Shown here: positions 10,415 through 32,341 of the stretch, one piece after another
How positions within the stretch are numbered: the stretch's first letter is position 1
Layout of the letters: every line of letters starts with the position of its first letter
Source: Bacteroidetes bacterium HGW-Bacteroidetes-21
Lineage (GTDB): Bacteria; Bacteroidota; Bacteroidia; Bacteroidales; GWA2-32-17
Assembly: GCA_002840935.1 (NCBI GenBank)
Contig: PHDH01000014.1
Location: 1-32,677 of the forward strand
DNA length: 32,677 nucleotides
Direction: 5' to 3'
The notes under the pieces: generated by a model
What the model was told of the DNA's origin: nothing
The model's database searches: none
Seen by the model: the letters and a program-made list of their open reading frames with translations, nothing else
Program-made: the position numbers and the translations under genes

Positions 10415-11362
10415 ATGCAGTTATCCATTGTCATCCCTCTATTTAACGAAGAAGAATCCTTGCCAGAACTTTCATCATGGATACACGATGTTTGTCAAAA
10501 GCATAACTATAGCTATGAAATTATCTTCGTCGACGACGGGAGCAACGACAATTCGTGGAAAGTGATTCAGGACTTGTCTGCAACCAACAAGAATATTAAA
10601 GCCCTTCGTTTCAGAAGAAATTATGGCAAATCGGCTGGCTTATATTGTGGTTTCGAGGTTGCCCAGGGAGATGTTGTTCTAACCATGGATGCAGACCTTC
10701 AAGATTCTCCCGACGAAATTCCGGGTCTCTATAAAATGATTACCGAAGAAGGTTACGATCTGGTTTCGGGTTGGAAGCAGAAACGTTACGACCCATTTAT
10801 GAAAACCTTTCCCAGCAAGTTTTTCAACTGGACTGCCCGCAGGGTATCCAAAATAAAATTACACGATTTTAACTGCGGGCTCAAAGCATACCGCAAAGAA
10901 GTCATTAAAAGCATAGAAGTTTACGGCGAAATGCATCGTTATATTCCCATACTGGCTAAAAGAGCCGGGTTTGCAAAAATTGGAGAAAAAGTGGTTATGC
11001 ATCAGTCGCGAAAATATGGCGTAAGCAAGTTCGGTCTGGAGAGATTTGTGAATGGATTTCTCGACCTTTTATCGCTTTCCTTTATTTCACGTTTTGGCAA
11101 ACGACCCATGCATTTTTTTGGCGTCTGGGGAACCCTCATGTTCTTAATCGGAGGCGGCGTAGCCTTATACCTGCTTATCGAAAAAGTCGTCAAATCACTA
11201 AACAACACCCCATTACGCGACGTGACCGATCAGCCTTTGTTTTATCTGGCACTGCTGGCCATAATTCTTGGCGTTCAACTCTTTCTCGCCGGTTTCCTGG
11301 GCGAATTGATCTCCCGTAACGGCAGCGACAGAAACAAATATATGATTTCGGAGGAAATTTAG
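10415..11362 (+). CDS. GT2 family polyprenyl-phosphate glycosyltransferase (GtrB/DPM1-like)
   Basis: A 315-residue enzyme. Residues 1-225 form a GT-A fold with IVIPLFNEEESLPEL, FVDDGSNDNSW (~38-48), the metal-binding MDADLQDSPDEIP (~91-103) and the HDFNCGLKAYRKEV acceptor loop. Two transmembrane helices at ~235-256 and ~275-297 (FFGVWGTLMFLIGGGVALYL; LALLAIILGVQLFLAGFLGE) are typical of GtrB, ArnC and Dpm1 relatives that attach a sugar from a nucleotide donor to undecaprenyl phosphate at the inner membrane. The exact sugar cannot be read from sequence. It is expressed with the DUF4199 gene. The downstream gene is convergent, and the gap holds a palindromic repeat. Confidence 0.9.
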   Translation: MQLSIVIPLFNEEESLPELSSWIHDVCQKHNYSYEIIFVDDGSNDNSWKVIQDLSATNKNIKALRFRRNYGKSAGLYCGFEVAQGDVVLTMDADLQDSPDEIPGLYKMITEEGYDLVSGWKQKRYDPFMKTFPSKFFNWTARRVSKIKLHDFNCGLKAYRKEVIKSIEVYGEMHRYIPILAKRAGFAKIGEKVVMHQSRKYGVSKFGLERFVNGFLDLLSLSFISRFGKRPMHFFGVWGTLMFLIGGGVALYLLIEKVVKSLNNTPLRDVTDQPLFYLALLAIILGVQLFLAGFLGELISRNGSDRNKYMISEEI

Positions 11363-11388
11363 TATTAGCCTTTGGCTGTTGGCCTTAT

Positions 11389-11439
11389 GCTATTAGCTAT
11401 TGGCCATTAGCCTTTAGCTAACAGCCAATAGCTAACAGC
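11389..11439. repeat. Imperfect palindromic intergenic repeat (TTAGC/GCCAATAGC family)
   Basis: GCTATTAGCTATTGGC (11389-11404) and GCCAATAGCTAACAGC (11424-11439) form a stem with 15 of 16 pairs and a 19-nt loop. The flanks (AGCCTTTGGCTGTTGGCC, TTAGCC, TTTAGC) carry further copies of the same short words, so the whole 11363-11444 spacer is built from TTAGC/TTGGC units. It lies between two convergent genes (GT2 and outer-membrane protein) and could serve as a transcript-end hairpin, but there is no classical T-run. A related sequence is found inside the coding region at 31868-31939. Confidence 0.75.
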
Positions 11440-11444
11440 TATAT

Positions 11445-13898
11445 TTACTCTCCCATATCTATCGATTCCGATTCCATTTCCGAACGACCTTTTTTCTCGC
11501 GTTGTTTATTTCCTTCGTTCAGGCGGTAGGAGAAAGTCAGGAATACCACCCTGCTCTCGCGTTTAAACACCATGTTGCCAACCAAATCCGACTCGGTGGT
11601 TCTAATTTTAAACTCCATGGTATTGAAAATATCGCTCATTCGCAGAGACAAAGATGCTTTACGATCCCAAAAATCTTTTCTAATGGCGGCATCTGTTGTC
11701 CAGAAACCTTCACGTATAGATTGGGGCATGACACTGGGTCCGTTTACCCTGAAATTAATCTGTAGGCTGAAATCTTTGGGCAAAACAAAAGTAGCATTCA
11801 GTTTTCCATCATAACTGTAAATATCATTGGTAAGATCATTTTCTTCGTACGAACCATCAACTGAGGTTTTGTAGCAGGAAAAATCTGCCGCCAGACGAAT
11901 AGGTTTTATGGGCTGATAAGTAATGATAAAGTCAAGACCGTATGATTTTCCACTATTGGCATTGATCATAGTAACAAGAATACCGGGTATAGTATCGTTC
12001 GTAATACGATAGCGGCTTATAATATTCTCAATATTTTTGTAGAAAATTGAGGAAGTAAAGGACACTTTTTTCCAGTCTTTAATATGAGACAGCTCATACG
12101 AATTAATATATTCTGGTTTTAACTGCGGATTCCCCGTACGCAAAGTCAAAGGATCTGACGCATCAATAAAAGGATCCAACGCATGATGATCGGGGCGATT
12201 AATTCTTCGGCTGTAACTCAATTGAACTTTGTTCATGGCAGGAAGTTCATAAGTCATATGTACACTAGGGAAGAAATCTAAATACCCAACATCAAACTTT
12301 TGATTTGTAATAATCTGATTTCCTTGAATCATCGATTGTTCTGCTCTTATCCCAGCCTGCCCAGTAATTTTCTTAAAACTTCCCGAAACAATACCATATC
12401 CAGCATATACCTGATCGGTGTATATAAAGTGATTCGAAAGACTGGTTGCAACATAATCTGTAGTAATTGAATCCAGGTTATAAAATTTATAATCCGTATC
12501 CATCTCCCGAAAAGTCGTTTTTATACCCGTCTCGAGTTTCCACTTTTCATTCAAGGGATGAATGTAATCACTTTGAACAATAAGATTTGTTCTGTCGGAA
12601 ACTGTCTGTGATAATTGGTCCTGACCAGAAATTGACGGATAATTGTAATCTTCATAGAAATACTCATCTTCAGAAAACTTGCCAAAAGTATAATAAACAT
12701 CTGCTGTCAATTCCTGAATTGGACGGGAAAATCTTTTTCTATAGCTCAGATTCAAATCAGCATTAGTATTATTATCCACGGGAGAATCTTCATACCTTTT
12801 ATAATCACTTAAGACCTGCATATTATAATCTTTAATAAGGTAGTTCCCATCCGAGGTACCAGGATGCCCACCAGTTCTGAAATTACCAGAAAAAGTCAGG
12901 GTATTCATGGGGTTAAAATCATAATCGAGTCCCCCTTTAAAAGAATGGGATAATATATCACGGGTTGTTTTTGCGTTAATATCATAATAAGTAGCTGTGT
13001 CATTGCGATACATAGTGCGATACTGTGAGCGGGATCCGTTTCTTTCTTCTGATCTGAAGTCATATCCTCCAAAAAAGTTGAACTTATTCACCCGGTAATT
13101 TAAACTCACCGAGGCATTGTATTTATTCCAGGTGCCTATGCCAACAGAAGCAAGGCCGTTTAATCCATTGCGCTTTTCTTTTTTGGTTATAATATTTAAA
13201 ATCCCCGTCATTCCCTCGGGATCGTATTTTGCAGATGGATTGGTAATAAGCTCTATACTTTGGACCGAACTAGCAGGAATTTGCTCCAGGGCATCGGCAG
13301 CAGAAGAAGCCAAAGGCGCAGGTTTGCCATCAATTAGTATTCTGACATTGGTACTACCTCTAAGACTGACATTGCCATCCATATCGACAGAAACAGCCGG
13401 GGTATTTCGCAATATATCTGTGGCCGAGCCACCCGTGGTTACAATATTCTGCTCTACATTAATTACCTTTTTATCGAGATTAAATTCAACCAATGGTTTC
13501 TGATCAACAACATTAACTTCGCCCAACTGCTGAACAAATCCTTCAAGTTTAATTACACCCACATTAACCTGAGGTGTTTTGGGGGTCACCATTACATCGC
13601 CAGAATATCTGTTATACCCGATAAAATCAACTTTCAAAAAATATTTTCCACCAGGCACATCTTTCATTGTAAAATATCCTTTGGCATCACTAATGGTTCC
13701 AGAAACCAAAGAAGTATCTTTCATTTTGTATATCGAAATACTGGCATATTCTACGGGCTTATTACTTTTCTTGTCTAGAATCTGTCCCGAAATCTCTCCT
13801 TTAAAATCACCATTTGGTCCTCCCCCTCCGGGTCTTTGCGCAATCAACGAACTACTTGTCAATAATATAACTAAAATACTATAGGCTAAAATTTTCAT
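11445..13898 (-). CDS. Outer-membrane beta-barrel protein with CarboxypepD_reg-like and plug domains (TonB-receptor-like)
   Basis: An 817-residue secreted protein. After the signal peptide (MKILAYSILVILLTSSSLIAQ) comes a glycine-rich RPGGGGPNGDF stretch, then a CarboxypepD_reg-like Ig fold (~32-115: GEISGQILDKKSNKPVEYAS, SDAKGYFTMKDVPGGKYFL). Next is a plug-like domain (~125-235: TDILRNTPAVSVDMDGNVSL, IPASSVQSIELITNPSAKYD) and a large C-terminal barrel with alternating aromatic strands ending in ...RVVFLTFSYRLNEGNKQ. This is the layout of Bacteroidota TonB-dependent-receptor-like outer-membrane proteins. No SusD partner is adjacent, so it is not a SusCD pair and its ligand is unknown. The charged C-terminal tail (EKKGRSEMESESIDMGE) extends past the last strand, which is unusual for a barrel whose final strand normally ends the protein. 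Confidence 0.88.
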   Translation of the reverse strand: MKILAYSILVILLTSSSLIAQRPGGGGPNGDFKGEISGQILDKKSNKPVEYASISIYKMKDTSLVSGTISDAKGYFTMKDVPGGKYFLKVDFIGYNRYSGDVMVTPKTPQVNVGVIKLEGFVQQLGEVNVVDQKPLVEFNLDKKVINVEQNIVTTGGSATDILRNTPAVSVDMDGNVSLRGSTNVRILIDGKPAPLASSAADALEQIPASSVQSIELITNPSAKYDPEGMTGILNIITKKEKRNGLNGLASVGIGTWNKYNASVSLNYRVNKFNFFGGYDFRSEERNGSRSQYRTMYRNDTATYYDINAKTTRDILSHSFKGGLDYDFNPMNTLTFSGNFRTGGHPGTSDGNYLIKDYNMQVLSDYKRYEDSPVDNNTNADLNLSYRKRFSRPIQELTADVYYTFGKFSEDEYFYEDYNYPSISGQDQLSQTVSDRTNLIVQSDYIHPLNEKWKLETGIKTTFREMDTDYKFYNLDSITTDYVATSLSNHFIYTDQVYAGYGIVSGSFKKITGQAGIRAEQSMIQGNQIITNQKFDVGYLDFFPSVHMTYELPAMNKVQLSYSRRINRPDHHALDPFIDASDPLTLRTGNPQLKPEYINSYELSHIKDWKKVSFTSSIFYKNIENIISRYRITNDTIPGILVTMINANSGKSYGLDFIITYQPIKPIRLAADFSCYKTSVDGSYEENDLTNDIYSYDGKLNATFVLPKDFSLQINFRVNGPSVMPQSIREGFWTTDAAIRKDFWDRKASLSLRMSDIFNTMEFKIRTTESDLVGNMVFKRESRVVFLTFSYRLNEGNKQREKKGRSEMESESIDMGE

Positions 13899-23086: not shown

Positions 23087-25045
23087 TCAGATCCTAACAC
23101 CAATTACCAAGATATCGTCAACTTGCTCCAATGGTCCTTTCCATTCAAGAATGGTTTGGTTCAGGATGTCCTGTTGGCGATTCATATTTTCGTTCTGGAA
23201 TGAAAGCAGCAATTCTTTGAATCTGGAATACTTAAACTTCTTACCTCCTTCATTGAACTTAGGTCCGCCAAACTGGTCGGCATACCCATCGGAGAAAATG
23301 TAGAATGTATCCCCTTTTTCCAATTCTATCATTTGGTTGGTAAAAGGTTTATTCTCTTCGTAAAGTCCAATCGGTTGTTTATCCGCCTTAAATTCTGTCA
23401 ACTCACCATTTCTGATTAAATAGAGGGGATTGTTTGCACCAGAAAACTGGAGTTGATTATTATCCAAATCGAGTAAACATAAGGCCATATCCATTCCGTC
23501 TCGAGTCTGACTTTCGACACCTGGCTGATGCAACGCAGTAATTACATAATTTCTCAAATGATTGAGAATATCATTTGCGTGCATAAGTTCAATCTTATTG
23601 ATAATCTCTTTCAGAAAAGCGACGCCCAGCAAGCTCATAAAAGCACCTGGCACACCATGCCCGGTACAGTCGGCTGCAGCAATAATAATTTTATTGTCTC
23701 TTTCTGCCATCCAATAGTAATCGCCTGATACAATATCTCTGGGTTTATTCAGAATGAAATAACTGTCTTTCATCAAATCATTCAAAAATTTGGGAGGGGG
23801 CAATACTGCTTGTTGAATACGACGGGCATAGTGAATACTATCCGTGATTTCTTTTTTCTGATGTGCAATTTCATCACGCTGTTCAACGGCGACTCTTCTT
23901 TCTTCTTCTATCTCATCTCGTTGTCTTTCAATCTCGTCGCGTTGGGCTTCAATTTCTTCTTTTTGCTGACGAATTTCTTCGTTCTGCTGCATGATTTCGT
24001 GATTCTTCTCCGTCAGCATTTTATTAGATTGCTTTTTGATTTTGTAAGCCCGATAGATAAAAAACCCGAGTCCTATTAAAACCAAAGCCAACGCAACAAA
24101 CATATAAAGTATAAATTGCTGAAGATGAATTTTTTCCAATTGTTCGTTCAGTACCTTTTTTTGCTCTGCAATTTTTACTTCCTGATCAGTCATTTCGGCC
24201 TTTTGCCTGTCGAGGATTTTGCTTTGGGTAACAATTTGCTCTTTTTGCTCATCCAACTCCTTTTGCTTTTTTTCGAGTTCGGCCAGCTTCTGTCTCAGTA
24301 GCGCCTGATTTACCCCAACCCGCTGCATTAATGTGGTCAATTCCTTTTTCTGATCGTCAATTCTGGCTTGCTGTTCTTCAATTTCTTTTCTCTGTTTTAC
24401 CAGTCGTTCTTCCTGCGCAGCTATTTCAATTTTCTGATCCTCGATGACCTTGGTCTGCTTTTCAACAATTTCCTTTTCTTTTTGCAGCTCTATATCGGTT
24501 TTTTTATACAACTCTTCCCAGTCGGCTTTCGACTTAATTGAAAGAGCCGCGAACAGCGGAGTAACAGTAAAACCTTCTTCCTTCACTTTCGCTTCATTCA
24601 TTTCGAAGCGTTTTTCGTTGTTCACAACTATGAAATTGATCATTGATTTATGGAACTCGTAGTTTTCGGTAATGAGCAAAATATTTTTTCCCTGAACGAT
24701 TTCCTGTAGTTTGTATATATTATAGCCATTATCTTTGTTGGCAAAAAGGACCTGAGCATGAGGAATTTCTTCGGGCTGGGAATATCTTGTAACAGCTATA
24801 GGTTTACCATGCACATTACCTCTTTCTGCAGCCATCTTTTTTAATTCGTTGAGCAAATCGTCGTTATTGTCGAGGATAGCAATTTTGAACGTTTTAATAG
24901 AATCTTCACCTTGCCACTTCACATACTTAACAATATCAAAAATAAATACCGCTCTGCTTCGGTTATCAAATTTATTTTGTCCTGCTAGTGTTCCGGAAAA
25001 CAATACGAGGAAAAATAAGACTATTTGTAAAAGCTTTGTTTTCAA
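23087..25045 (-). CDS. YfiR-like sensor, coiled coil, transmembrane, SpoIIE/PP2C phosphatase
   Basis: A 652-residue signalling protein. Signal peptide (1-22), then a periplasmic YfiR/HmsC-like (DUF4154) domain at ~25-185 (RAVFIFDIVKYVKWQ, FKIAILDNNDDLL, PHAQVLFANKD, KNILLITENYEF, VVNNEKRFEMNEAKV). Next are a long Gln/Glu/Lys coiled coil (~190-305), one transmembrane helix (FILYMFVALALVLIGLGFFIY), a second coiled coil (QQNEEIRQQKEEIEAQRDEI...) and a C-terminal SpoIIE-type PP2C domain with metal-binding aspartates in DIVSGDYYW, AADCTGHGVPGAFMS, GMDMALCLLDLD and FSDGYADQFGG. It probably dephosphorylates Ser/Thr of an anti-anti-sigma-like or similar target in response to an envelope signal (inference). 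No such partner is encoded nearby. It shares its output module with the phosphatase at 29597. Confidence 0.88.
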   Translation of the reverse strand: MKTKLLQIVLFFLVLFSGTLAGQNKFDNRSRAVFIFDIVKYVKWQGEDSIKTFKIAILDNNDDLLNELKKMAAERGNVHGKPIAVTRYSQPEEIPHAQVLFANKDNGYNIYKLQEIVQGKNILLITENYEFHKSMINFIVVNNEKRFEMNEAKVKEEGFTVTPLFAALSIKSKADWEELYKKTDIELQKEKEIVEKQTKVIEDQKIEIAAQEERLVKQRKEIEEQQARIDDQKKELTTLMQRVGVNQALLRQKLAELEKKQKELDEQKEQIVTQSKILDRQKAEMTDQEVKIAEQKKVLNEQLEKIHLQQFILYMFVALALVLIGLGFFIYRAYKIKKQSNKMLTEKNHEIMQQNEEIRQQKEEIEAQRDEIERQRDEIEEERRVAVEQRDEIAHQKKEITDSIHYARRIQQAVLPPPKFLNDLMKDSYFILNKPRDIVSGDYYWMAERDNKIIIAAADCTGHGVPGAFMSLLGVAFLKEIINKIELMHANDILNHLRNYVITALHQPGVESQTRDGMDMALCLLDLDNNQLQFSGANNPLYLIRNGELTEFKADKQPIGLYEENKPFTNQMIELEKGDTFYIFSDGYADQFGGPKFNEGGKKFKYSRFKELLLSFQNENMNRQQDILNQTILEWKGPLEQVDDILVIGVRI

Positions 25046-26319: not shown

Positions 26320-26682
26320 ATGAAAATTGCAATTCCAACCCGCGACACACAAGTAGATGATCATTTTGGTCACTGTGCGTATTACACGATTTACGAAATC
26401 GCCGACAATAAAATTTCGGATAAAAAAATGCTCCCTTCTCCCCAGGGATGTGGGTGCAAATCGAATATAGCCGGGGTCTTAAAACAGTTAAATGTTACCA
26501 TCATGCTGGCAGGCAATATGGGCGAAGGCGCTTTACAGATGCTCAAATCGCACGGCATAGAAGTTATTAGAGGCTGTCAGGGAGAGTGCGACAAAGTAGT
26601 CGCAGACTATCTTTCAGGCGGAATAAAAGACAGTGGTCAAGGATGTGCCAGTCACGACGAAGGTCATAGCTGCGGACATTAA
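26320..26682 (+). CDS. NifX/NifB-type iron-molybdenum cluster-binding domain protein
   Basis: 120 residues of the dinitrogenase iron-molybdenum cofactor family (MKIAIPTRDTQVDDHFGHCAYYTIYEI, GNMGEGALQMLKSHGIEVIRGCQG). The domain occupies ~1-105; the end is a Cys/His-rich tail (GQGCASHDEGHSCGH), suitable for metal binding. Cys also occurs in the PSPQGCGCKSN loop. No nif genes are in the window, and stand-alone members of this family are common in anaerobes without nitrogenase. The reading frame begins 2 nt after the DUF134 gene, so the two are one operon. Its actual cargo (an Fe-S or Mo-Fe-S cluster) is unknown. Confidence 0.88.
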   Translation: MKIAIPTRDTQVDDHFGHCAYYTIYEIADNKISDKKMLPSPQGCGCKSNIAGVLKQLNVTIMLAGNMGEGALQMLKSHGIEVIRGCQGECDKVVADYLSGGIKDSGQGCASHDEGHSCGH

Positions 26683-29596: not shown

Positions 29597-32341
29597 GTGG
29601 TATTTTCGAAACACATATTAGTATTTGCATTCGTTTCTCTTCTACCTGTATTTTCTTTTTCTCAAGCCAGCAAAACAGATTCACTTCAAAATGCAATTAC
29701 CCGGGCAAAGCACGACACTATAAAAGCACGCTTATACGTCGAAATGGGTGATGCCTTGAGATCTTCGCTCCCCGACTCCGCATTATTTTACTACAAAGAA
29801 GCCATTACTCTGGCGGGAAAAAAGTTAAAAGACTGTCCAAATTGTTCAGATACCGAAAAAGGGCTTTACTTGCTCAGAAAAGCTTCTGCCACAAGGCACT
29901 CCGGAATTGTTTACATCAACTGGAGTGAATATAACACAGCAACAGACTATGTACAGACAGCCTTAAAGCTTTTCAGGGAGTTGAAAGATTCACCGGTGCT
30001 TTTTCTTGCGGATGAAGGTAAAAAAGGTCTCTCGAAATGCTACAGCAATTTTGGCAGCATATTCAAAGAACAGGGCCAATTAGACGAAGCCACGCAGTAT
30101 TTCAGGAAGGCCTTACAAATGGCAAAAGAAGCCGGGGACAAAAAAAGTATGTCATCTTGCTATAACGGACTGGGTATTATTCATTATTATCAGGGCGATT
30201 ACGATAAAGCTGTTTTTCAATATCTGAATGCCATTAAAATATTCCACGAACTTAACGATAATAGTGGCATGTCGGCTGCCTATTCGAATATCGGACTGGT
30301 GTATGCCGGACAAGGGCTCTACGATAAGGCACTGGAGAATTACCAGAATGCCCTTAAAATACTCGAGAAAATGGGAGACGAAAAAGGCATTGCTTCTTGC
30401 TATAATAATATTGGATTACTCCAATATGATCAGAAAAGCTACGAGACTGCTCTTGACTACTTTTTCAAATCACTAAAAATCAACGAGAAAATCGCAAATC
30501 AGACACAGTTGGCCAGCAACTTCAATAATATTGGCAATGTTTACAGCGATCAGTCGAAATACGACGAAGCCATTGCGTATTACAAAAAGTCATTAAAAAT
30601 AAGAGAAGATACTCAGGATAAAATCAGCATGTCGGGCTGTTACAATAATATTGGTTTGATTTATTTTTATAAAGGCGAATTATCCCGTTCGCTCGAGTAT
30701 TACAATAAAACACTGGCCATTTCGCTCGAATTAGGCGACAAAAGCGGGATAGCCAAAGTCTACGGCAATCTCTCTTCGTTATATCTGGAGTTATCGGAAA
30801 AAGGAGGAAACAATACCGCTGAGCTACTAAAGAAAGCACTCGAATGCGGTCAAAAGTCGTACGATCTGGCAGTAGAAATTGGTGCCATTCCCGTTCAGAA
30901 CACCACGGCTGCTCACCTGAAAAAAGCTTACACTAAGCTGGGACTTTATAAAGAAGCCATCTACTATGCCAACATCTACATTTCTACCAAAGACAGCATG
31001 TTTTCGGACGAAAAAACCAATGCACTGGCCGAAATGGGTGCAAAATACCAATCGGAGAAAAAGCAACTTGAGATAGACAACCTCAGCAATGCCAACAAAC
31101 TTAAAGCGCTTGAATTATCTAAAAGTGAAGAACAAAGGGCAAAACAGAAAATCATACTCTATTCTTTTATCTTTGGGTTTATATTAATTCTTACTTTTTC
31201 TATCTTAATTCTGCGCCTCTTTGTGCAAAAGAAAAAAGCAAACATACTTCTGGCCAAGCAGAAAGAGCAGATTGAATTAAAAAACAACCTTTTAGAACAA
31301 GCCAACGAAGAAATCAATGCACAGAAAGACGAAATTCAGGCACAGCGCGACATGGTCATAGGTCAAAAGGAATTTATCGAAGGTCAACAAAAAGAGATTA
31401 TCGATAGCATTAACTATGCAAAAAAGATACAACAGGCGGTGATTCCTGTCAACAAGGAGTCGCGCGAAATACTGGGTAAGCACTTTATACTTTTCAGGCC
31501 CCGTGATGTGGTCTCTGGCGACTTCTATTGGGCCACCCGCATTGAACACAATCTGGTGGTTGCCGTTGCCGATTGCACAGGTCATGGCGTCCCGGGGGCA
31601 TTTATGTCGATGCTGGGCATTAGTTCGCTGAACGAAATTGTGAGAAGAAAAGACGTAACACGGGCCAGCGACATCCTCAATCAACTCAGAGCTTATATTA
31701 TCTCTACCATGCGACAATCCGTTGATGCAGATGCCGGATCGGTATACTCGGCCACCCCCGGTCACATGAAAGATGGCATGGACATCAGCTTAACAGTGAT
31801 CAACTTAATTACTGGTCGTTGTCAATGGGCAGGAGCCAATAATCCACTTTACATAATTAGAAATGCGGCTATTAGCCAAGAGACCTCAGCCCACCTTGCC
31901 TGCCAGCAGGTAGGTGGCCAATGGCCAAAAGCCAATAGCAATCTTGAGGAGGTAAAAGTGGATTTAACTCCCGGAACCGCAACGCTAGTGGAGGTGAAGG
32001 GAGATTCATCTCCCGGAACCGCAACGTTAGTGGAGGTGAAGGGAGACAAAATGCCCATCGCCGTGCATGTACGCATGAATGAATTTACAAATCATGAATT
32101 ACAATTAAACAAAGGCGACCGTATCTATTTATTTTCCGATGGTTATGCCGATCAGTTCGGGGGGCCCAAAGGCAAAAAAATACTCTACAGCGAATTTAAA
32201 CGCATCATAACGGATACATCGCACCTCGACATCGAGGCACAAGGTAAAGCTATGGAAAATATTCTCGACGAATGGATGCAATACGACGAAGTTAAATACA
32301 AGCAGGTAGACGATATTGCTATATTGGGAATGGAAATTTAA
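29597..32341 (+). CDS. TPR sensor, transmembrane, SpoIIE/PP2C phosphatase
   Basis: 914 residues with a GTG start. A stop codon in frame at 29582-29584 and the lack of an ATG before the signal peptide VFSKHILVFAFVSLLPVFSFS make GTG 29597 the only sensible start. A periplasmic tetratricopeptide region (~40-470, around eight repeats such as ASCYNNIGLLQYDQKSYETA) is followed by a helix, a transmembrane segment (IILYSFIFGFILILTFSILIL), a coiled coil (AQKDEIQAQRDMVIGQKEFIEG) and a PP2C domain with metal-binding aspartates in DVVSGDFYW, ADCTGHGVPGAFMS, KDGMDISLTVI and FSDGYADQFGG. Between NNPLYIIRN and KMPIAVH the domain carries ~50 extra residues made of repeat DNA (see repeats), while the catalytic residues remain intact. 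It shares the output module of the gene at 23087. Confidence 0.9.
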   Translation: MVFSKHILVFAFVSLLPVFSFSQASKTDSLQNAITRAKHDTIKARLYVEMGDALRSSLPDSALFYYKEAITLAGKKLKDCPNCSDTEKGLYLLRKASATRHSGIVYINWSEYNTATDYVQTALKLFRELKDSPVLFLADEGKKGLSKCYSNFGSIFKEQGQLDEATQYFRKALQMAKEAGDKKSMSSCYNGLGIIHYYQGDYDKAVFQYLNAIKIFHELNDNSGMSAAYSNIGLVYAGQGLYDKALENYQNALKILEKMGDEKGIASCYNNIGLLQYDQKSYETALDYFFKSLKINEKIANQTQLASNFNNIGNVYSDQSKYDEAIAYYKKSLKIREDTQDKISMSGCYNNIGLIYFYKGELSRSLEYYNKTLAISLELGDKSGIAKVYGNLSSLYLELSEKGGNNTAELLKKALECGQKSYDLAVEIGAIPVQNTTAAHLKKAYTKLGLYKEAIYYANIYISTKDSMFSDEKTNALAEMGAKYQSEKKQLEIDNLSNANKLKALELSKSEEQRAKQKIILYSFIFGFILILTFSILILRLFVQKKKANILLAKQKEQIELKNNLLEQANEEINAQKDEIQAQRDMVIGQKEFIEGQQKEIIDSINYAKKIQQAVIPVNKESREILGKHFILFRPRDVVSGDFYWATRIEHNLVVAVADCTGHGVPGAFMSMLGISSLNEIVRRKDVTRASDILNQLRAYIISTMRQSVDADAGSVYSATPGHMKDGMDISLTVINLITGRCQWAGANNPLYIIRNAAISQETSAHLACQQVGGQWPKANSNLEEVKVDLTPGTATLVEVKGDSSPGTATLVEVKGDKMPIAVHVRMNEFTNHELQLNKGDRIYLFSDGYADQFGGPKGKKILYSEFKRIITDTSHLDIEAQGKAMENILDEWMQYDEVKYKQVDDIAILGMEI
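31868..31939. repeat. Nested palindromic repeat inserted in frame in the phosphatase gene
   Basis: Outer arms GCTATTAGC (31868-31876) and GCCAATAGC (31931-31939) pair with one mismatch. Inside is a strong stem, CCACCT-TG-CCTGC / GCAGG-T-AGGTGG (31891-31917), with a CA loop, followed by TGGCCAATGGCCA. It is translated as AAISQETSAHLACQQVGGQW in frame, at a place where the related phosphatase (23087) goes directly from LIRN to GELTEFKADKQP. The outer arms are the same word family as the intergenic palindrome at 11389-11439. Confidence 0.75.
31940..32065 (+). repeat. Three 42-bp (14-residue) tandem units in the phosphatase gene
   Basis: Units at 31940-31981, 31982-32023 and 32024-32065 encode NLEEVKVDLTPGTA, TLVEVKGDSSPGTA and TLVEVKGDKMPIAV. 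The last unit corresponds to the native sequence (LTEFKADKQPIGL in the paralogue), so the first two look like duplications of it. Units 1 and 2 share CTCCCGGAACCGCAACG at their junctions with the next unit; units 2 and 3 share GTGGAGGTGAAGGGAGA. The reading frame is preserved throughout. Confidence 0.8.

Follow-up and report, generated by a model that had tools for sequence, protein, structure and literature searches.

The window analyzed here, a stretch of 32,677 nucleotides, comes from Bacteroidetes bacterium HGW-Bacteroidetes-21 (a draft genome of 3.9 Mb, G000 below). Toward its right-hand end lies a gene whose SpoIIE-type phosphatase domain is interrupted, in frame, by a palindromic repeat and copies of a host segment. 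The genes and features that bear on this interruption are the following.

29597–32341 (+): host gene, 914 aa, encoding TPR repeats, a probable transmembrane segment and a SpoIIE-type PP2C (PPM) domain
31865–32026 (+): in-frame insert of 54 codons at the turn between beta6 (PLYIIRN) and beta7 (LVEVKGDKMPI), delimited against the paralogue at 23087–25045 and others
31868–31877 (+): left heptad arm, GCTATTAGCC, consensus GCYNTTR (sequence and genome-wide family), with GCTATTAGC at 31868–31876
31891–31918 (+): inner inverted repeat, CCACCTTGCCTGCC/AGCAGGTAGGTGG, with arms CCACCTTGCCTGC at 31891–31903 and GCAGGTAGGTGG at 31907–31918
31917–31939 (+): right heptad arm, GCCAATGGCCAAAAGCCAATAGC, complement of GCYNTTR, with GCCAATAGC at 31931–31939
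31943–31984 (+): first added copy of a 42-bp unit (LEEVKVDLTPGTAT)
31985–32026 (+): second added copy of the 42-bp unit (LVEVKGDSSPGTAT)
32027–32057 (+): native beta7 segment LVEVKGDKMP, from which the 42-bp unit probably derives, present in uninterrupted paralogues
23087–25045 (−): SpoIIE paralogue without the insert, empty site RNGELTEFKADKQPIG (sequence comparison and Pfam)
11360–11442 (no strand): intergenic hairpin copy of the heptad repeat, between genes 10415–11362 (+) and 11445–13898 (−)

The host gene matches Pfam families TPR_12 and SpoIIE (PF07228); the insert cuts the latter profile match into two pieces, both of which score over the cut-off. No variation is seen at the metal-binding aspartates (D41, D58, D247 and D304/D305) in an alignment of 51 sequences, the host protein among them. 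With the profile over its cut-off and the metal-ligand aspartates in place, the domain belongs to PF07228; its best match among solved folds is the PP2C domain of SiaA (6k4e, E 5.1e-21). The host protein would be ordinary as an enzyme and presumably retains activity.

PLYIIRN ends at 31864 and LVEVKGDKMPI begins at 32027; the reading frame is open across the 54 added codons between them, which translate as NAAISQETSAHLACQQVGGQWPKANSNLEEVKVDLTPGTAT LVEVKGDSSPGTAT LVEVKGDKMPIA. The first half of the insert consists of degenerate heptads, GCYNTTR and its complement, flanking a CCTGCC/GGCAGG core (heptad pattern matches in the right arm: 31917–31932 and 31924–31939, − strand), and the second half of the two added 42-bp copies. 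The latter belong to a tandem array at 31948–32046 (2.4 copies, 87% match; the two full copies are 81% alike) whose last, partial unit is the native segment. An earlier note on this DNA had described about 50 residues absent from the paralogue at 23087, inserted into the host domain as a nested palindrome followed by a 42-bp triplication with a native last unit, the frame and the metal-binding aspartates being kept. This description holds: the paralogue has RNGELTEFKADKQPIG where the host has 54 codons, and other uninterrupted paralogues and relatives exist. The palindrome itself is degenerate when taken singly; folded as single-stranded DNA it gave z = −1.39, and 14 of 200 shuffles were equally good.

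Where in the fold does the insert lie? In an AF2 model of the domain (mean pLDDT 81.6, pTM 0.83), strands 150–155 and 208–213 flank the insert and the block pLDDT inside it is mostly 36–58; the surface loop proposed earlier is predicted, at low confidence, to bulge out between two beta-strands. The distance from the LIRN arginine to the SDG aspartate is 41 residues in the uninterrupted paralogue, versus 40 for Arg706 to Asp746 of SpoIIE, and that from the KGD aspartate to the metal aspartate is 7 residues, as for SpoIIE Asp739. By this aspartate spacing, the turn would correspond to the beta6–beta7 turn of B. subtilis SpoIIE, just after Arg706. Three loops dock substrate: the switch-loop, the flap (beta7–beta8) and the alpha3/4 loop (PMC11418112); the beta6–beta7 turn is therefore not a docking loop. 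The flap had been a candidate for the enlarged loop and was ruled out, because the spacing to the metal aspartate is that of beta6–beta7 and the flap comes after it. Placed by correspondence in this way, the turn is probably distal to the active site and likely to be structurally tolerant.

The repeat and the 42-bp unit in the window's genome

G000 has about 33 SpoIIE-type phosphatase genes, and the sets in related genomes are as large or larger. The GCYNTTR pattern matches this genome 80 times, versus 7 times for a reversed control, and loops built of it stand at the same codon in 8 of the roughly 33 genes (C13, C42, C72, C95, C105, C151 and two in C269). Because of this recurrence, in the genome at large and at one codon in seven SpoIIE genes besides the host, the insert's palindrome is above chance. 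Genome searches with the insert as query returned SpoIIE genes repeatedly, and the insert shares its CCTGCC..GGCAGG core with the C269 and C151 loops. The empty site, a short turn, was seen in 11 of 25 distinct G000 domains retrieved. Strong heptad clusters number about 21 in all; roughly 10 lie beyond SpoIIE genes at intergenic or gene-end positions and one inside a T9SS sorting domain (C10:3705 and C290:7344 lie outside this location survey). The intergenic copy at 11360–11442 folds well as DNA (z = −4.25), and the host-gene palindrome is decayed relative to it; the likeness earlier noted between the insert and the intergenic repeat (11389–11439) is that of two members of one heptad family. 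A further sequence at 26504–26523 (−), overlapping the ORF 26320–26682, matches the insert's inner palindrome arm at 90%.

The 42-bp unit was found in seven SpoIIE genes and nowhere else in the genome search, reaching 93% identity over 70 bp in pairs of genes with domain identities of about 50%. In C128 it stands without any palindrome. The earlier suggestion that the host segment was copied alongside this particular insertion fails on these grounds. The status of AAGGTTGA as a dispersed repeat of G000 was unsupported: it gave 4 matches versus 1 in the control, three of the four in SpoIIE loops. One gene (L175 on C234, GCAGCTAACAGCCAATTAG) has a slightly enlarged turn, RNAANSQL, and its DNA resembles a GCYNTTR remnant or seed.

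Unrelated repeats at one turn

In several genomes of the same family, other hairpin repeats fill this turn: in G006, heptads of the AGTNNGC kind as well as the palindromes AACCTAACAGGTTTTCAAAACCTGTTAGG, GATTTGACAACTTTTGAAAAGTTGTCAAATC and AAACCTTAAGGTTT, AAAAGTN heptads in G004 and G008, and GTCATTCTGAACG-type repeats in G002, G004 and G008. That the turn is occupied in so many paralogues, and in other species by unrelated sequence, had not been foreseen. The main families have dispersed copies. AGTMNGC matches G006 155 times (control 0), and the GTCATTCTG family (GTCATYCTGARNG..GAAGRATCT) has 65, 43 and 52 matches in G002, G004 and G008 (control 0) and 7 in G006. The G000 genome search gave no match to GTCATYCTGARNG..GAAGRATCT, and G000 loops are also free of it; loops of the VILNEREE type were seen only in genomes that hold this repeat. 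AAAAGTN is less clear cut (26 versus 4 control matches in G004, 10 versus 3 in G008). Within the loci examined, GATTTGACAACTTTT was also present outside SpoIIE genes in G000. Similar hairpin-bearing loops occur in more distant Bacteroidota (L067, L068, L093, L094 and L106), and no stop was found in repeat loops among the matches listed, in a search that reads through and counts stops. Recurrence at this one site is close to certain. In L228 (G026:C266), a SpoIIE domain carries an in-frame tandem duplication of about 45 residues spanning beta6, beta7 and the flap, another route to enlargement.

Could slippage at a tolerant turn have made repeat-like DNA in place, as ordinary length variation with no link to dispersed repeats? 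Variation of the turn is indeed seen throughout the phylum, and a recognized repeat or hairpin signal is missing from many long loops, so that part of the variation is of this ordinary kind. As an account of the repeat loops it is very unlikely, since their DNA agrees with dispersed repeats specific to the genome, for which controls gave few matches or none, and their class follows the genome (see below).

Hairpins are enriched in the loops. An RNA folding z below −2 was obtained for 49% of 61 long loops from related genomes versus 4% of 393 control windows, the controls being same-length windows of the same genes; in a more distant set the values were 21% and 3%. This bias, the frequency of long loops in the SpoIIE family and the lack of stops among the matches listed (in a search that would have read through them) are what would be expected if the peptide, or an mRNA or DNA hairpin, were useful, for example to tether a partner, to delay translation ahead of the flap or to separate paralogous pathways. 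Against such selection, the peptides at the site are unrelated, short-turn paralogues persist in the same genome, homogenization makes the loops of one genome alike (where insulation would need them to differ) and the known specificity loops lie elsewhere in the domain (PMC11418112). We thus regard a selected loop as quite unlikely.

Distribution of loops among paralogous genes

To what extent does a loop follow its gene? A maximum-likelihood tree of 72 domains was built with the loop removed, and 13 loop classes were mapped onto it. The classes change 41 times on this tree, as compared to a shuffled mean of 50 and a least possible value of 12; loop type tracks genome more than gene. The host gene groups most closely with L215 of G006, which has a different palindrome, L226 of G004, which has another loop, and L176 of G000, which has no insert (joint support 100/96). 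The sister orthologues L198 (G002) and L225 (G004) have unrelated loops, with an identity of 0.35 next to flanks of 0.78–0.89. The tree rules out a single insertion followed by gene duplication.

Paralogues within a genome gave the reverse picture. L213 and L214:612 (G006) have loops that are 100% identical between flanks of 64% and 58%; the values are 95% (70% and 65%) for L208:5222 and L287 (G004) and 88% (61% and 54%) for L198 and L199 (G002), and four KFDNLK loops of G004 are 97–99% identical, with 79–96% upstream and 79–94% further downstream; all the genomes are draft assemblies, in which the collapse of near-identical loops could inflate such identities. Three loop types on one contig (that of L214) and private substitutions argue against collapse as the main cause. 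A wider artefact of assembly or binning, for which one could cite the draft state of the genomes and repeats about as long as a read, is highly improbable: several assemblies made independently show the same pattern, the L214 contig holds loops of different types and every one of the matches listed has its loop in frame.

Loops change as block replacements, not by scattered substitutions. A genome-wide search allowing one mismatch placed the G006 loop core AATGARATGCACRAACTGC in five SpoIIE loops and nowhere else (at two mismatches there is one match, in an unrelated gene), and the full L199 loop of G002 is carried by only one further SpoIIE gene. At least some of the spread is therefore attributable to copying between these genes, and we consider it probable that loops have been copied between paralogues. 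The 42-bp unit shows the same behaviour. A rival account is a selfish element that prefers this short DNA target, each family transposing itself, so that every loop is independent and no conversion is required. Loops do occupy the same codon in genes of different clades, dispersed copies exist and the L198/L199 identity tract begins and ends at the repeat edges, a pattern in which transposition could mimic conversion. Such an element is nonetheless unlikely. Unrelated families would all have to require one target, the G006 loops have a common core absent from every dispersed copy and the near-identical tracts of L213/L214 (with some 20 bp of conserved host codons at either end) and L212/L239 take in flanking host codons. 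The earlier note had envisaged a mobile repeat that enters genes. Its insertion and its copies elsewhere stand; a large share of the spread has the look of loops being copied from one SpoIIE gene to another, not of a fresh transposition in each case. The comparisons that the note had proposed, with orthologues and with the rest of the genome, showed that the loop is not common to orthologues and that the repeat has other copies, so that neither outcome named there as refuting the insertion was seen.

Interpretation and comparison with known systems

We judge the best explanation, and a likely one, to be that a repeat-derived loop at the beta6–beta7 turn was tolerated there and then copied between paralogues. 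The insert would be a coding copy of the genome's own dispersed hairpin heptad repeat, lodged in the turn. Dispersed inverted repeats may occasionally enter genes in these Bacteroidota; copies at beta6–beta7 would survive because this turn lies away from the active site, and the number of paralogous domains, dozens in each genome, would multiply the target. The loop, comprising the repeat and a few flanking conserved codons, could then be copied from gene to gene by short-tract gene conversion or template switching, with the conserved codons for PLYII and KGDKMPI as anchors, and through such copying loop type would come to track genome more than gene. The two added 42-bp units may have arisen by local duplication of the native beta7 segment and then spread in the same manner. 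We infer the copying mechanism, and we take neutral tolerance as the default reading: the loops would be tolerated, not selected. A bolder proposal, which we hold to be decidedly improbable, is that the turn is a true cassette site. Hairpin repeats would then be taken up there and exchanged among dozens of paralogues at a higher pace than the remainder of the gene evolves, and the loops would serve in partner tethering or pathway tagging. If real, such a site would give the cell a non-retroelement route to diversify a signalling domain.

Other proteins carry similar inserts. Homologous T9SS proteins of G000 (L182, C290:28914–28944) and G004 (L307, C207:10488) have different, genome-specific heptads at the same turn of Por_Secre_tail, which is a second landing site, and an asparagine synthase (L309, G008:C68, about 1500–1620) has an in-frame insert of an AAAAGT/GTCATTTCGAGCG repeat. 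These cases suggest that tolerance at exposed turns is probably the general rule, of which the SpoIIE turn is the most frequent case seen here. In L254 (G006:C179:24343), an ORF with AGTNNGC heptads, the 21-nt period reads as coiled-coil-like 7-residue units (LQSAVGS/QQSEIGS); a dispersed DNA repeat has apparently turned into a repeat protein segment there.

The phosphatase turn is a natural record of non-coding repeats becoming protein, and it is unusual as a record of sequence birth: at a single homologous position, across dozens of genes in several genomes, unrelated repeat families have settled, and empty, filled and exchanged loops occur together, so that capture, frame selection, spread by copying and decay become countable. 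It also carries a warning, because at this turn domain profiles split and orthologue alignments mislead. We found no report on repeats in Bacteroidetes SpoIIE loops in the open-access literature, an absence that is weak evidence.

How do these loops compare with known systems? Cyanobacterial STRRs are heptanucleotide repeats, with 7-bp units that are mainly intergenic and lineage-specific. The repeats described here share these three traits with heptanucleotide repeats (PMC4679880). In the TAACTGA sets of Beggiatoaceae, Cyanobacteria and some Bacteroidetes, a single fixed heptamer is repeated in direct arrays (PMC4679880), whereas ours are degenerate heptads (GCYNTTR, AGTNNGC, RAAAGTN) that build the two arms of a hairpin and lie partly in coding sequence. 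As short dispersed inverted repeats they resemble REP and MITE-like palindromes, whose marks are GTAG/CGTC tags, a RAYT transposase, terminal repeats and target-site duplications (PMC3733652, PMC10969869). The coding palindromes of nematomorph mitochondria are also inverted repeats in translated genes, but there both arms encode conserved residues (PMC6649704), whereas here residues are added at a variable turn. In fold and metal-binding residues the domains are like SpoIIE/RsbU/SiaA-type PPM phosphatases (PDB 6k4e, 5ucg, 5mqh), from which they differ in a beta6–beta7 turn enlarged by repeat-coded residues. Diversity-generating retroelements, with their reverse transcriptase, template repeat and A-specific changes, offer an analogy; the changes here are block replacements.

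The seeding of protein segments by small dispersed repeats has so far been discussed mainly for Rickettsia. As described in the cited accounts, the Rickettsia palindromic elements (RPEs; Ogata et al. 2000, 2002) are about 150 bp long and were reported from unrelated genes (PMC10969869, PMC6649704). Like these, our repeats are palindromic and dispersed, lie in frame in protein genes and are translated, and the host protein apparently still works. The insert is translated within its host gene, dispersed copies include intergenic ones and hairpins mark the loops as a group, the host-gene copy alone being weak in this respect. Relative to the RPEs as so described, the families here are unrelated to one another, mostly shorter and convergent on a single codon position within one domain family; the loop seems to travel apart from its gene through copying between paralogues, and the phylum is Bacteroidota. 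Knowing RPEs by description, we would regard the SpoIIE-loop repeats as like them in effect and do not file them as RPEs. What sets them apart from RPEs is the convergence of unrelated repeats on one site, together with the exchange of loops between paralogues.
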